From Mesorhizobium shangrilense (lineage in GTDB: Bacteria > Pseudomonadota > Alphaproteobacteria > Rhizobiales > Rhizobiaceae): a DNA stretch of 64,000 bases. Position numbers and translations under genes: made by a program. Below the pieces are notes generated by a model, which was given only the letters and a program-made list of their open reading frames with translations, searched no databases and was not told where the DNA came from. The stretch covers positions 4,216,001-4,280,000 of the forward strand of contig NZ_JBEWSZ010000001.1 of assembly GCF_040537815.1 (NCBI RefSeq), written 5' to 3'. Positions 49,690-55,328 of this stretch are shown piece by piece. Position 1 is the first letter of the stretch, and each line of letters starts with the position of its first letter.

Positions 49690-51107
49690 GACAAGCGCGC
49701 GAGCAAAACCAGAGTGCCATCATGACCTCACCTTCGGGCTCGACGCCCACCGAGGCGCAAGCCTTTCTTGACGCTCATCCCGAGATCGAGGCCTTCGATA
49801 TCGTGCTGACCGACGCCAATGGCGTCGGGCGCGGCAAGATCGTTCGGCGGCACGAATTGATGAGCATATTCCAGGGCGGACGGCACATGCCGATCTCGAT
49901 CCTCGGCCTCGACATCACCGGCGAGGATGTGCACGAAACCGGGCTGATCTGGACGACGGGTGACGGCGATCTCAGGGCATGGCCGATCCCTGGCACGCTT
50001 GTGCCGCTCTACGGCACGAACCCGGCGCGCGGCCAGGTGCTGATGGCGATGTACCAGCTTGACGGCCAGCCCATGTCTTCCGACCCTCGCCTGGCGCTGG
50101 CGCGACAGGTCGAAATCCTTGCGGCCAAGGGCCTCTATCCGGCAGGCGCCTTCGAGCTCGAATTTTTTCTCCTCGCCAACGAACGCGATGCCGATGGCAA
50201 GGTGCAGCCGGCGCGCGCCGTGCTCGATGGCCGTGTCTCCGGCAAGACCGAAGTCTATTCCGTCGACCATCTGCACGGCATGGAGCCGCTGTTCTCCGAC
50301 ATCTATGCCGCCGCCAAGGCGCAGGGCATTCCGGCCGAGACGGTCATTTCCGAATACGCTCCCGGCCAGTACGAATTGACGCTGAACTACCGCAAGGATG
50401 TGATGCGGGCGGCCGACGACCTGGTCATGCTGAAGCGGCTTGTGCGGGCGCAGGCGCGCCGCCACGGCGTCACCGCCTGCTTCATGGCCAAGCCGATCGA
50501 GAAATATGCCGGCTCCGGCATGCATTTCCATGTCTCGCTGCAGGACAAGGCCGGCCGAAATGTCTTCGCCGAAGCCGGCGGCGAGAGCTGGTCGCTGCCG
50601 CTGCTCCAGGGGCTCGGCGGTCTCATCCAGACAATGGCGGAGTCCATGCTGGTGTTTGCGCCGCACGCCAATTCCTGGCGCCGCTTCGTTTCGCAATCCT
50701 ATGCGCCGGTGGCGCCGACCTGGGGCGTCAACAACCGTTCGGTGGCGCTGCGCGTGCCGGCCGGCGACGCCAGGAACCGGCGCATCGAGCATCGGCCGTC
50801 CGGCGTTGATGCCAACCCCTATCTGATCGCGGCGACCGTACTGGCCGGCATCATCAAGGGCCTCGATGAAGGCCTCGATCCCGGACCAGAGACGACCGGC
50901 AACGGCTATGAGTCTGCGATCACGCGCACGACGATGCCGGTGGATTGGCGCGCGGCGATCGAGGCGGCCAGGGCTTCCACCTTCCTCAAGGAAGCTCTTG
51001 GCGAAGACCTGCACCGCACCTTCGTGGCAATCAAGCAGTCCGAGTACCTGCGTGTGGCACGCACGGTCAGCGAACTGGACTACCACCTCTATCTGCACGA
51101 GGTCTGA
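49686..51107 (+). CDS. Glutamine synthetase-like ligase (gamma-glutamyl-amine synthetase type)
   Basis: The 473-residue protein has the GS catalytic domain: the FELEFFLL metal site, SEYAPGQYELTL, GSGMHFHVSLQ, and the C-terminal RRIEHRPSGVDANPYLIAATVLAG signature shared with PuuA and GlnT. Such enzymes join glutamate to an amine with ATP. It starts inside the stop of the transaminase gene; a second ATG at 49722 is possible. Together with that enzyme, and perhaps with the PuuD-like hydrolase at 36233, it could form a gamma-glutamylation route for amines. Confidence 0.88.
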   Translation: MRQAREQNQSAIMTSPSGSTPTEAQAFLDAHPEIEAFDIVLTDANGVGRGKIVRRHELMSIFQGGRHMPISILGLDITGEDVHETGLIWTTGDGDLRAWPIPGTLVPLYGTNPARGQVLMAMYQLDGQPMSSDPRLALARQVEILAAKGLYPAGAFELEFFLLANERDADGKVQPARAVLDGRVSGKTEVYSVDHLHGMEPLFSDIYAAAKAQGIPAETVISEYAPGQYELTLNYRKDVMRAADDLVMLKRLVRAQARRHGVTACFMAKPIEKYAGSGMHFHVSLQDKAGRNVFAEAGGESWSLPLLQGLGGLIQTMAESMLVFAPHANSWRRFVSQSYAPVAPTWGVNNRSVALRVPAGDARNRRIEHRPSGVDANPYLIAATVLAGIIKGLDEGLDPGPETTGNGYESAITRTTMPVDWRAAIEAARASTFLKEALGEDLHRTFVAIKQSEYLRVARTVSELDYHLYLHEV

Positions 51108-51179
51108 GCTCAGAAAGATCTGAGGCGGTGATCACTTTTCGCCGCCTTACATCAAATGTGGTGGTGCGCCGGTCATTTA

Positions 51180-51194
51180 GAACATATCATGAAC
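51180..51194. promoter_or_regulatory. LexA (SOS) box
   Basis: GAAC-ATATCAT-GAAC matches the alphaproteobacterial LexA site GAAC-N7-GAAC (GTTC-N7-GTTC on the other strand) exactly. It ends two bases before the radical SAM start codon, so LexA bound there would block transcription. Confidence 0.8.
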
Positions 51195-51196
51195 GA

Positions 51197-52432
51197 ATGA
51201 CCGCACTCACCGTTCTCGAAAAGCTGGCGATCCTGTCCGATGCCGCCAAATACGATGCATCCTGCGCTTCATCGGGATCGACCAAGCGCGATTCGCTGAA
51301 CTCCGGGGGCATCGGCTCCACGGAGGGCATGGGCATCTGCCATTCCTACGCGCCGGACGGCCGTTGCATTTCGCTGCTGAAGATCCTGCTCACCAATTTC
51401 TGCATCTATGATTGCAGCTATTGCATCAACCGCTCTTCCTCGAATGTGCAGCGCGCCCGCTTCACCGTCGGTGAGGTGGTCAAGCTGACCATGGATTTCT
51501 ACCGGCGCAATTACATCGAGGGCCTGTTCCTGTCCTCGGGCGTCGTCCGCTCTCCGGATGAGACCATGGGCGAGATGGTCGAAGTGGCGCGGCGGCTGCG
51601 GCTGGACGAGAAGTTCTCCGGCTACATCCATCTGAAAACCATTCCGGAAAGCTCGGCGGAACTGGTCGAGAAGGCGGGGCTCTATGCCGACCGGCTGTCG
51701 ATCAATGTCGAGCTGCCGACCGACGAAGGCGTGAAGAGATTGGCGCCGGAAAAGAAGCCGGAAACCATCCGCCTTTCGATGGCCAAGCTGCGCCAGAAGA
51801 TGGAGGAAAAAGCCGAGCCGACGCTGAGGACCAAAAAGCGCGAACGCTTCGCGCCGGGCGGACAATCGACGCAGATGATCGTGGGTGCCGACAAGACCTC
51901 CGACGACGGCATCCTGCACACCAGCGCGCGGCTTTATGGCAGCTACCATTTGCGGCGTGTCTATTATTCCGCTTTCAGCCCGATCCCCGATTCATCGTCG
52001 TCGCTGCCCTTGCAAAAGCCGCCTTTGATGCGCGAACACCGCCTTTATCAGGCCGACTGGCTGATGCGGTTCTACGGATTCTCGCAGCCAGAAATCCTCG
52101 CCGGCAGCAGCGATGGCATGCTCGACCTCGCCATCGACCCGAAGCTGGCCTGGGCGCTGCGCAACCGGGGGCAATTCCCCGTCGATATCAACCGCGCCGA
52201 CCGCGAAGCGCTGCTGCGCGTGCCGGGTCTGGGCACCAAGGTGGTGATGAAAATCCTGGAGACCCGCCGCCACCGGCGGCTGCGGCTGGAAGATGTCGGG
52301 CGCCTCTGCCAGTCGATCACCAAGCTGCGGCCCTTCATTATCGCCGAAGGCTGGTCGCCGGGCGCGCTCACCGACAAGGCCGGCTTGCGCGGCAAGATCG
52401 TACGTTCCTGCGAACAACTGTCGCTGTTTTGA
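51197..52432 (+). CDS. Radical SAM protein linked to UdgX, putative DNA modification/repair enzyme
   Basis: This 411-residue radical SAM enzyme has the cluster motif CIYDCSYC (Cys69, 73 and 76, CxxxCxxC). Three further cysteines (near 23, 48 and 57) may hold another metal. The core has GLFLSSGVVRSPDETM and YIHLKTIPESS, and the C-terminal end carries a helix-hairpin-helix (INRADREALLRVPGLGTKVVMKIL), a DNA-binding element. This is the family described as radical SAM linked to uracil-DNA glycosylase; its reaction is unknown. ATG 51197 is the family start, although no ribosome site precedes it, so the message could be leaderless. A LexA box overlaps the promoter, and the next gene starts two bases after the stop. 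Confidence 0.9.
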   Translation: MTALTVLEKLAILSDAAKYDASCASSGSTKRDSLNSGGIGSTEGMGICHSYAPDGRCISLLKILLTNFCIYDCSYCINRSSSNVQRARFTVGEVVKLTMDFYRRNYIEGLFLSSGVVRSPDETMGEMVEVARRLRLDEKFSGYIHLKTIPESSAELVEKAGLYADRLSINVELPTDEGVKRLAPEKKPETIRLSMAKLRQKMEEKAEPTLRTKKRERFAPGGQSTQMIVGADKTSDDGILHTSARLYGSYHLRRVYYSAFSPIPDSSSSLPLQKPPLMREHRLYQADWLMRFYGFSQPEILAGSSDGMLDLAIDPKLAWALRNRGQFPVDINRADREALLRVPGLGTKVVMKILETRRHRRLRLEDVGRLCQSITKLRPFIIAEGWSPGALTDKAGLRGKIVRSCEQLSLF

Positions 52433-52434
52433 CC

Positions 52435-53898
52435 ATGCAGCCGGCCGAGCTCAATCTTGCCCGATACAGCGTTCGGCTCGACAGCGAGACCGATTTTGCC
52501 GGCTGGCGCGATGCGGCGCGGCGGCTGGCGCTGAACGAGGTCAAACCCGAGGACATCGGCTGGCATGTCGCATCGGACTCCACTCAAACCGATTTGCCGG
52601 CCGTACCCGCGGGCGCGCAGCTCGCGGTGCCGCGAGACTTCATCGGGCACGCCGAAACGGCCTTCTGCCATTCCGACCCCGGCCGTTTCGCTTTTCTCTA
52701 CCGGCTGCTGTGGCGATTGCGAAGCGAACCCAAATTGCTGTCGATTGCGTCGGATCCCGACACCAGGCGCCTCGAAACCATGGAGAAGGCGGTACGCCGC
52801 GATAGCCACAAGATGCATGCCTTCGTGCGTTTCCGAAAGATCGGCGATGGCGACGATGAGCGCTATGTCGCCTGGTTCGAGCCCGATCATTTCATCGTCG
52901 AGCGCAACGCGGATTTCTTCGTCAGGCGATTCACCGGCATGCGCTGGACCATCCTGACGCCCTATGCCTCCGCTGATTGGGATGGCAAAAGGCTGGCCAT
53001 CGGGCCGGGCGCAGCCAAGGGCGATGCGCCGACGCAGGACGACACGGAGGCGCTGTGGCGCACCTATTTCGAGAACATCTTCAACCCGGCGCGGCTGAAG
53101 GTGAAAGCCATGCAGAAGGAGATGCCGAAGAAATATTGGCGGAACCTTCCCGAGGCCTCGCTCATTCCTGAATTGATCGCGGGAGCGGACAAGGCCGCCA
53201 AGGATATGATTGCCAGGATGCCGACGACGCCAGCGCCGCACCACGCCAAGGTGCAGGCAAAGCATTGGCCGAAGCGTGAGCCGGCCGAGGCGACGGAGGA
53301 CGATGGTGCCACCACGATTTCCGCATTGCGTGAAGCAGCCAAGGGTTGCCGCCGCTGCCCGCTGTGGCGCGACGCGACGCAGACCGTGTTCGGCGAAGGA
53401 CCTGACAATGCCCGAGTGATCTTCGTCGGCGAACAGCCGGGCGATCAGGAAGACATCGCCGGCAAACCTTTCGTCGGCCCGGCAGGCAAGGTGTTCGATG
53501 CCATACTGGACGATGCTGGGGTCGACCGGCGGAAAGTCTACGTCACCAACGCGGTCAAGCATTTCAAATTCGAGCCGCGCGGCAAGCGCCGCATCCATTC
53601 CAAACCGAATGCCGGCGAAGTCCAGGCCTGCCGCTGGTGGATCGACCGGGAATTCGCGCAGATCAAGCCGGATCTTGCCGTGGCGCTGGGCGCAACGGCG
53701 GCGTTGTCGCTGCTGGGCAAGGCGATCCCTGTCACAAAAATGCGCGGCCAAGTGATCGAGCGCGAGGACGGGTTGCGGGTATTGATCACCATCCACCCCT
53801 CCTTCATCCTGCGCATCCATGAGCCCGCGGACAAGGACGCTGAACGCGAGCGGTTTCTAAGGGATATGAGAGAGGTGAAGCGGCTGATGGCGGCGTGA
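52435..53898 (+). CDS. DUF4130-UdgX fusion: uracil-DNA crosslinking glycosylase
   Basis: This 487-residue two-domain protein starts with a DUF4130/TIGR03915 domain (about residues 5-250, including DPGRFAFLYRLLWRLRSEP and YFENIFNPARLKVKAMQKEMPKKYWRNLPEAS). The C-terminal half is a UdgX-type family 4-like uracil-DNA glycosylase with CRRCPLW, GEQPGDQEDIAGKPFVGPAG (from about residue 332) and the diagnostic KRRIH motif, His388. In UdgX of Mycobacterium this histidine becomes covalently linked to the abasic sugar after uracil removal. It follows the radical SAM gene by two bases. The domain pairing with a radical SAM partner and LexA control point to a DNA damage role. Confidence 0.92.
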   Translation: MQPAELNLARYSVRLDSETDFAGWRDAARRLALNEVKPEDIGWHVASDSTQTDLPAVPAGAQLAVPRDFIGHAETAFCHSDPGRFAFLYRLLWRLRSEPKLLSIASDPDTRRLETMEKAVRRDSHKMHAFVRFRKIGDGDDERYVAWFEPDHFIVERNADFFVRRFTGMRWTILTPYASADWDGKRLAIGPGAAKGDAPTQDDTEALWRTYFENIFNPARLKVKAMQKEMPKKYWRNLPEASLIPELIAGADKAAKDMIARMPTTPAPHHAKVQAKHWPKREPAEATEDDGATTISALREAAKGCRRCPLWRDATQTVFGEGPDNARVIFVGEQPGDQEDIAGKPFVGPAGKVFDAILDDAGVDRRKVYVTNAVKHFKFEPRGKRRIHSKPNAGEVQACRWWIDREFAQIKPDLAVALGATAALSLLGKAIPVTKMRGQVIEREDGLRVLITIHPSFILRIHEPADKDAERERFLRDMREVKRLMAA

Positions 53899-53911
53899 GG
53901 TCACGGAATGG

Positions 53912-53959
53912 ATCCCAGGGTCTCCACGACGGAGCTTCGCTCCTGCTTCGCCCAGGGAT
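53912..53959. repeat. Palindromic intergenic element
   Basis: ATCCCAGGG (53912-53920) pairs with CCCAGGGAT (53951-53959) apart from one A-A mismatch, with an inner GGAGC-TTC-GCTCC hairpin at 53931-53943. The element resembles repeats dispersed in Mesorhizobium genomes and may also end the udgX transcript. Confidence 0.6.
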
Positions 53960-54062
53960 GACGAAGTTGGGAGAGCTCCGGCCAATCTCCAACGATGCGA
54001 GAAATTCGACTGTGGAAGCTTGGCCCGATGAGCGTCCAATCTGTCAAAACTGCAGCGGTTCT

Positions 54063-55328
54063 CTATCGAACCAGAATCGCCCTCAAATCATTGACATTCG
54101 TGCCGGTCGGGCCGGGCGCAAACAGATCGCCAACGGCATTGAATGCCGTCCAGGCATTGTTGCCGGCCAGCATCGCCTTGGCATCGACGCCGGCCGCCCG
54201 CATGCGCGACACGGTCGAACCATCGGCGAAGGCGCCGGCATTGTTCTCCGAACCGTCGATGCCGTCGGTGTCGGCGGCCAGGGCGTGGATGCCTTCCGCA
54301 CCGTTGATGCCGATGGCGAAGGCAAGCAGGAATTCCGAGTTGCGGCCCCCCTTGCCCTTGGCGCGCAAGGTCACCGTGGTTTCACCGCCCGACAGGATCA
54401 GCACAGGCTTCGGGAACGGCCGGTTGCGCGTTGCCACTTCGCGCGCGATCGCGGCATGGACACCACCAACCTCGCGCGCTTCGCCCTCGATCGAGTCCGA
54501 AAGGATGACGGCGTCGATGCCTTGCCGCTTGGCTTCCGCTGCGGCCGCTTCCAGTGAGACTCCAGCCGAGGCGATCAGATGCACTTCGTTGCGCGAAAAT
54601 CGCTGATCATCGGGACTTGGGGCATCGGCGACCGGCGAATTGATATGCGCCATCACCGAGGCCGGCAGCTTCATGTCATAAGCGGCGATCGACGCCAGCG
54701 CATCTTCGCGGCTACCGGTGTCGGGAACGGTTGGACCGGAGGCGACCAGCGCGGGATTGTCGCCGGGAATGTCGGAGACGACCAGCGACACGACCCTGGC
54801 TGGCCAGGCGGTCGCCGCCAGCCGACCACCCTTGATGGTGGAAACATGCTTGCGGATAGTGTTCATCGCCGCTATCGGCGCGCCGGAAGCAAGCAGCGCC
54901 TCGTTGACGGCGATCTCGTCGGCCAGCGTCAAGCTGCCGGCTGGAGACGGCAACAGCGCCGAGCCGCCACCGGAAATGAGCGCCACGACCAGATCGTCCG
55001 CTGTCAGGCCCTGCACCTTTGCCAGCAGGCGGCGCGAGGCCTCGAGCCCGGCGGCATCAGGCACTGGATGCGCCGCCTCGATGATTTCGATGCGCTCGCA
55101 TTTGGCGCCATAGCCATAGCGGGTGACGATCAGCCCTTCGATAGGTCCGTCCCAGACCTTTTCGAAGGCCGCGGCCATCTGTGCCGAGCCTTTTCCCGCG
55201 CCAATGACGATGGTGCGACCCTTGGGCTTCGCCGGCAAATGATCGCGGATCGTGCGTTCCGGATCGGCGGCCGCAACGGCAGCGTTGAAGATCGATGTGA
55301 GGAAGAGCTTGGAGTCCATGCCGGTCAT
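54063..55328 (-). CDS. Glycerate 2-kinase (GckA/TtuD, MOFRL family)
   Basis: This is a 421-residue kinase that makes 2-phosphoglycerate from glycerate with ATP. It has an N-terminal DUF4147 domain (GAGKGSAQMAAAFEKVW, LISGGGSALLPSP) and a C-terminal MOFRL domain (LSGGETTVTLRAKGKGGRNSEFLLAFA and ADTDGIDGSENNAGAF). Its start overlaps the stop of the UPF0303 gene by four bases. In this locus it fits the last step of purine breakdown, where glyoxylate is converted through tartronate semialdehyde to glycerate and then to glycolysis. Confidence 0.9.
   Translation of the reverse strand: MTGMDSKLFLTSIFNAAVAAADPERTIRDHLPAKPKGRTIVIGAGKGSAQMAAAFEKVWDGPIEGLIVTRYGYGAKCERIEIIEAAHPVPDAAGLEASRRLLAKVQGLTADDLVVALISGGGSALLPSPAGSLTLADEIAVNEALLASGAPIAAMNTIRKHVSTIKGGRLAATAWPARVVSLVVSDIPGDNPALVASGPTVPDTGSREDALASIAAYDMKLPASVMAHINSPVADAPSPDDQRFSRNEVHLIASAGVSLEAAAAEAKRQGIDAVILSDSIEGEAREVGGVHAAIAREVATRNRPFPKPVLILSGGETTVTLRAKGKGGRNSEFLLAFAIGINGAEGIHALAADTDGIDGSENNAGAFADGSTVSRMRAAGVDAKAMLAGNNAWTAFNAVGDLFAPGPTGTNVNDLRAILVR

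Follow-up and report, generated by a model that had tools for sequence, protein, structure and literature searches.

The window analysed here, a stretch of 64,000 nucleotides from contig NZ_JBEWSZ010000001.1 of Mesorhizobium shangrilense, carries a two-gene operon encoding a radical S-adenosylmethionine (radical SAM, rSAM) protein of family TIGR03916, which we take to be the same as COG4277, and a DUF4130-UdgX fusion protein. We read this operon, with a probability of roughly 0.5, as an SOS-induced system in which a clamp-tethered radical SAM enzyme would act on DNA lesions, DUF4130 being its partner and UdgX an additional trap for abasic sites. In broader terms, and held with the same assurance, the rSAM protein would be a sliding-clamp client performing radical DNA chemistry at the replication fork, DUF4130 its constant partner in three phyla, and UdgX a cap added by some lineages.

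A predicted sliding-clamp motif at the C-terminus of the rSAM protein

The rSAM protein ends in the pentapeptide QLSLF, which lies in a low-confidence tail of the structure model, with residues 408-411 scoring below 50 in the predicted local distance difference test (pLDDT). QLSLF matches the clamp-binding consensus QL[S/D]LF, more generally QxxLF, given in a passage of PMC12309361, and a passage of PMC4549789 describes clamp-binding motifs as often C-terminal. Using a strict motif definition that includes hexapeptide forms, a match was found in the last 20 residues of 125 of 135 distinct rSAM tails (de-duplicated from a 187-tail set that held repeats), compared with 2.0% of shuffled tails and with 2 of 912 neighbouring open reading frames (ORFs), the latter being mechanical frames of 200 amino acids or more, many of which are not genes. 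By set, the strict motif was present in 30/31 tails of the family sample, 77/79 distinct tails from genome_contigs and 13/17 tails from classes other than that of the window; when QA and QG forms were counted, a relaxed motif without a shuffle control, all 17 other-class tails carried it. The motif was also found in the last 40 residues of all eight further records (Acinetobacter, Bacteroides, Clostridia, Gemmatimonadota, Caballeronia, Azospirillum and two faecal contigs), and four more unbroken records (two Bacteroidota, one Clostridia and one faecal contig) have like ends. A diverged rSAM relative from a fourth phylum keeps the clamp motif; DUF4130 was not found with it.

These tails point to docking of the rSAM protein on DnaN. 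Among the titles and abstracts searched, no paper joining this rSAM family to sliding clamps was found. An earlier, preliminary description of the locus had missed both the clamp motif and the additional cysteines described below.

Distribution of rSAM, DUF4130 and UdgX

In a sample of 299 Pseudomonadota genomes, rSAM, DUF4130 and UdgX exceeded their cut-offs in 53, 56 and 52 genomes, respectively. DUF4130 accompanied rSAM in 53/53 genomes and UdgX did so in 40; the remaining 13 have rSAM and DUF4130 without UdgX over the cut-off (genomes G173, G195, G222, G229, G246, G329, G336, G342, G371, G383, G407, G431 and G443). Conversely, no rSAM passes the cut-off in 12 of the 52 UdgX genomes, of which five belong to the genus of the window. 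Because each is found without the other, the UdgX part can stand alone and so can the rSAM-DUF4130 part. To judge from this gene content, rSAM and DUF4130 are the core of the system and UdgX is added.

The same picture emerged from loci of unusual layout, in which DUF4130 was over the cut-off in 7/7 further genomes. Three loci (L028, L048 and L050) have rSAM and its LexA box apart from the DUF4130-UdgX fusion, both being kept in the genome; DUF4130 was not found in the rSAM flank of any of them and lies in the separate fusion instead. The genomes behind L051, L052, L101 and L103 contain DUF4130, with no UdgX over the cut-off. Outside the phylum, a stand-alone TIGR03915 gene comes after rSAM in Bacteroides, Parabacteroides and two Clostridia records. 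DUF4130-like frames lie downstream of rSAM in L201, L202, L230 and L232, and none was found near the diverged rSAM gene of L206; L106 and L199 have too little downstream sequence to be judged. In an Acinetobacter record, rSAM is followed by a 265-residue protein matching DUF4130. A record named Acinetobacter phage MD-2021a (L203) contains housekeeping genes, glyQS among them, and appears to be chromosomal DNA; its pair of rSAM and stand-alone DUF4130 is probably bacterial. A search of viral contigs gave two loci with rSAM relatives and none for DUF4130-UdgX, and the Bacteroides or Clostridia rSAM sequences found no relatives there. At E 0.01, none of the PADLOC models for anti-phage defence matched the rSAM or the DUF4130-UdgX protein.

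Within the window's genus, three of nine sampled genomes carry the operon, five have UdgX without rSAM and one has none of the families over the cut-off. Four of these five were read; a LexA box stands directly before the DUF4130 remnant in one, and no box was found in the other three. In the same-genus loci L179, L182, L186 and L195, rSAM is missing, DUF4130 is missing wholly or for the most part, and UdgX with KRRIH is kept. The DUF4130 remnants start at different residues, which suggests separate losses.

SOS control

In the window, the LexA box GAACATATCATGAAC ends 2 nt ahead of the rSAM start codon. Its conservation was assessed in 111 loci, comprising the best 30 of 68 rSAM-matching genomes from a 151-genome family sample, the own genome and the best 80 of 589 confirmed genome_contigs places; these sets are best-scoring, not random, some genomes occur twice, and one record labelled Salinicola (L105) clusters with the alpha type. 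GAAC-N7-GAAC was found within 120 bases upstream of rSAM in 106/111 loci, compared with 1/111 for the reversed pattern, and after removal of repeated upstream regions it was retained in 103 of 108 distinct alpha-type loci. The significance of the box lies in this conserved position and not in its count: genome-wide, the pattern has 201 matches compared with 236 for the reversed control, which is chance level, and a case built on that count was rejected. Within the window, six such sites (213-51194) were counted compared with 1.43 expected, and 1 of 100 shuffles reaches six. A single lexA is encoded in the genome and is itself preceded by a box; for recA, only one-mismatch forms occur within 200 bases upstream. 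With a conserved promoter box and lexA in the genome, the operon has the features of an SOS-regulon member, and LexA control in this strain is likely.

A second box type was met in the complete set of 17 genomes from other classes, presumably beta- and gammaproteobacterial, that exceeded the rSAM cut-off in the phylum sample, where most loci carry it. Within 150 bases upstream, CTGT-N8-ACAG was perfect in 10/17 and present with at most one mismatch in 13/17; allowing overlap with the start codon gave 15/17 at this level and two more perfect sites. The reversed control gave no perfect site and 1/17 with at most one mismatch. Among other-class loci without UdgX, 9/11 have the site with at most one mismatch before the gene, and a tenth has it if overlap with the start codon is allowed. 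In one Clostridia record, GAAC-N4-GTTC, presumably the Clostridia LexA consensus, lies upstream of rSAM. Because alpha-type loci carry GAAC-N7-GAAC and other-class loci CTGT-N8-ACAG, the box type tracks lineage, as expected under LexA control.

The preliminary description had proposed SOS control of the pair, and two types of conserved LexA box now speak for that control. Its statement that DUF4130 and the rSAM partner are known only as linked families holds in that the rSAM partner is uncharacterised, and is incomplete in that SOS regulation of the two-gene uracil-DNA glycosylase system COG1573-COG4277 is reported for Verrucomicrobia and Alphaproteobacteria, and predicted for Bacteroidetes, in passages of PMC8565304. 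SOS control of the rSAM/UdgX pair is hence already published and not new.

Promoter geometry

Across relatives, the -10 hexamer was found to be pinned to the start codon, with the LexA box either covering it or lying roughly a helical turn further upstream, in the -35/-10 spacer. TA stands at -12 in 51/57 loci with a box-to-start distance of 0-3 nt, and in 15/17 loci where that distance is 13-16 nt. In 56 loci with a box ending 1-3 nt before the start (a set that includes the own locus and some repeated ones), the -35 region has T in 46, G two positions on in 47 and C four positions on in 39. A -10 element at -12 to -7 would place the transcription start on the A of the start codon or close to it and hence give a leaderless message. 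This geometry supports the leaderless message proposed earlier; against it, a Shine-Dalgarno-like tetramer is present in 9/76 close-box loci. Start codons were chosen mechanically and are doubtful in some loci (L028, L043 and L049).

Organisation of the locus and its proteins

The features of the operon are collected in Table 1. The ATG of the rSAM gene is at 51197, and the fusion gene starts 2 nt past the rSAM stop codon. The preliminary description had placed the box, the two genes and their motifs correctly, among the latter the CxxxCxxC motif and the UdgX residues discussed below. A terminator scan of 53800-54100 found none.

Table 1. Coordinates of the operon and its features within the window.
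Feature	Position	Strand	Remark
-35-like hexamer TGGTGC, weak; TTG-type in many relatives	51162..51167	+	exactly 35 nt before start-codon A
LexA box GAAC-N7-GAAC (GAACATATCATGAAC)	51180..51194	+	conserved position, 103/108 distinct loci
-10 hexamer TATCAT within LexA-box spacer, -12 to -7 from start codon	51185..51190	+	TA at -12 in relatives
rSAM gene (TIGR03916 rSAM_link_UDG, 411 aa)	51197..52432	+	562.6 bits, curated cut-off 343.5
Extra Cys23, Cys48-His49 and Cys57 codons	51263..51367	+	conserved in 132/133 distinct sequences
CxxxCxxC (Cys69, Cys73, Cys76; residues 69-76)	51401..51424	+	133/133 distinct sequences
Helix-hairpin-helix	52178..52270	+	Pfam HHH_3 E 6.9e-5, 23.3 bits, below cut-off 27
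QLSLF, predicted sliding-clamp-binding motif at extreme C-terminus (residues 407-411)	52415..52429	+	consensus match
DUF4130-UdgX fusion gene (487 aa)	52435..53898	+	NCBIfam and Pfam profile matches
DUF4130 / TIGR03915 domain (residues 16-241)	52480..53157	+	211.6 bits, cut-off 112.25
UdgX domain TIGR03914 (residues 243-481)	53161..53877	+	328 bits, cut-off 189.95
R-loop KRRIH (residues 384-388), cross-linking His388	53584..53598	+	His in 89/89 distinct complete fusions

The structure model of the rSAM protein matches the rSAM fold. Three near-invariant cysteines in addition to those of CxxxCxxC may bind a second iron-sulfur cluster. As to the C-terminal helix-hairpin-helix described previously, a match was indeed found, its score falling below the Pfam cut-off; a ComEA-related chain also matches residues 324-381 (E 0.0052).

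In the fusion protein, DUF4130 scored 137.2 against a Pfam cut-off of 27, and the UdgX domain gave a best Foldseek E of 1.8e-20 to a UdgX structure. All UdgX motifs are present (GEQPG 332-336, KRRIH 384-388 and HPS 454-456). The residues of UdgX chemistry are thus intact as had been noted, and His388 is kept throughout the fusions compared, a set restricted to complete proteins of more than 380 residues, from which cut loci and L096, where the UdgX part is out of frame, were dropped. In two Paracoccus loci (L082 and L110), motif A of the UdgX domain is GEAPG rather than GEQPG with the R-loop histidine kept, which combines family-4 traits with those of UdgX. DUF4130 is linked to SplB-like rSAM enzymes and uracil-DNA glycosylases in a figure legend of PMC3765255.

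Proposed mechanism and alternatives

In the mechanism that we propose, RecA-driven cleavage of LexA would free the promoter. At stalled or gapped forks, the rSAM protein would dock on DnaN via QLSLF, and DUF4130 would help to hold the damaged or modified base on which the 5'-deoxyadenosyl radical of the enzyme acts, the chemistry being most likely direct lesion repair. UdgX would then remove a nearby uracil and cap the abasic site covalently, so that the site would be neither cut nor miscopied.

Several observations weigh against this reading. The clamp motif is short and linear, and its strict form is missing from the last 20 residues of 10/135 tails. Off-motif tails end in QQSLF (L002), QIELF (L035), QPRLL (L095), QGSLF (L214) or QASLF (L216, L217 and L218), and in the distant records L201, L202 and L206 the motif sits further from the end. 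The pointers to a DNA substrate for the rSAM protein are confined to the helix-hairpin-helix, itself below its cut-off, the SOS control and the neighbouring genes. The extra cysteines cannot be placed in the structure because residues 19-51 of the model are below pLDDT 50. For DUF4130, a profile search against the PDB gave one match, at E=1, and the structural matches of the fusion protein span only residues 281-487, barely reaching that domain. Five distinct alpha-type loci (L057, L068, L085, L087 and L103) are without a perfect box, and the other-class loci L212 and L214 are without CTGT-N8-ACAG even at two mismatches. With regard to the promoter, 34/108 loci fall outside the fixed -12 geometry (TA at -12 in 7 and at -14 in 7), the -35 of the window is weak, and a sigma-70 consensus scan of 51050-51300 gave no promoter.

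Among the alternatives, the one retaining most weight, unlikely as we consider it, is that the rSAM enzyme modifies a non-lesion DNA base for removal by a glycosylase, in a base-excision or mutagenesis route. The co-occurrence of UdgX with rSAM in 40/53 genomes and its fusion to the partner in the window would fit such a route, but the 13 rSAM-DUF4130 genomes without UdgX over the cut-off would have to use other glycosylases, which are possible there.

Distinctly less probable is a target other than DNA, namely RNA, a nucleotide or a protein acted on during SOS, against which stand the helix-hairpin-helix, the clamp motif, and UdgX and the SOS partners. Equally improbable, in our view, is that QLxLF is a structural end or another docking signal. 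A pentapeptide offers little to go by, but the tail is of low confidence in the model, several groups have extra residues after the motif, and the sequence varies mostly among forms of the clamp motif, hexapeptides like QLSLAL and QLILPF included; in a passage of PMC12309361, a QLSLPL peptide is described as a tight clamp binder.

The option raised in the preliminary description, in which the rSAM enzyme would undo UdgX-DNA cross-links by release or repair, accords with the gene adjacency, the joint LexA box and the intact His388 but is very improbable: release cannot be the general or conserved role because 13/53 rSAM-DUF4130 genomes are without UdgX over the cut-off, and it is further opposed by the 12/52 UdgX genomes without rSAM and by the CTGT-N8-ACAG sites kept before the UdgX-less other-class loci.

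Under its name, 'putative DNA modification/repair', the family has no assigned function; for the clamp-tethered lesion enzyme proposed here, the clamp motif suggests the fork as the site of action and DnaN binding as a simple test. A core that lacks UdgX singles out rSAM and DUF4130 as the pair to purify together, and the cysteine set makes a second iron-sulfur cluster worth looking for. If the proposal is true, a radical SAM enzyme would operate at replication forks, which would bear on the role of UdgX in cells.

Comparison with known systems

The operon itself is a member of a known, uncharacterised family, the TIGR03916/COG4277 gene pair with TIGR03915 and TIGR03914, all three models being over their cut-offs here, and no feature of the window departs from that family; the description of the rSAM partner as uncharacterised stands. 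What is new are the C-terminal clamp motif, the extra cysteines, the leaderless geometry and the UdgX-less core, none of which was met in the titles, abstracts and passages covered by the literature search.

Mycobacterium smegmatis UdgX shares the GEQPG, KRRIH and HPS motifs and the fold, with about 46% identity in the best structural matches, whereas in the window UdgX follows DUF4130 in one polypeptide and has an rSAM gene beside it. Pol IV and ImuB are clamp-tethered SOS proteins with LexA control and a sliding-clamp motif, the latter being predicted in the rSAM protein of the window; they are polymerases or polymerase-like, whereas the window protein is a radical SAM enzyme. Spore photoproduct lyase (SPL) SplB is likewise an rSAM enzyme acting on DNA, but the rSAM protein of the window differs from it in having a helix-hairpin-helix-like segment, the clamp motif and a DUF4130 partner. 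The SPL model, presumably part of the library, was not among the seven NCBIfam matches at E 0.1, and an SPL structure was absent among the 50 structural matches listed for the rSAM protein. SOS regulation of SplB genes in several species is reported in a passage of PMC8565304.

Inserted reading frames

In three loci (L078, L088 and L099, from a Novosphingobium metagenome-assembled genome (MAG), Novosphingobium and Stakelama), a conserved ORF of about 160 residues lies between rSAM and DUF4130. It looks like a hemerythrin-type HHE protein, which could guard an oxygen-sensitive enzyme. A Fulvimarina MAG (L049) has a gap of 1263 bases from rSAM to DUF4130-UdgX, with an inserted ORF that, from its HPE and CPMC motifs, looks like a cytidine/guanine-type zinc deaminase. 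Deaminases of that kind can make uracil, and in L049 the ORF adjoins the uracil-binding fusion.

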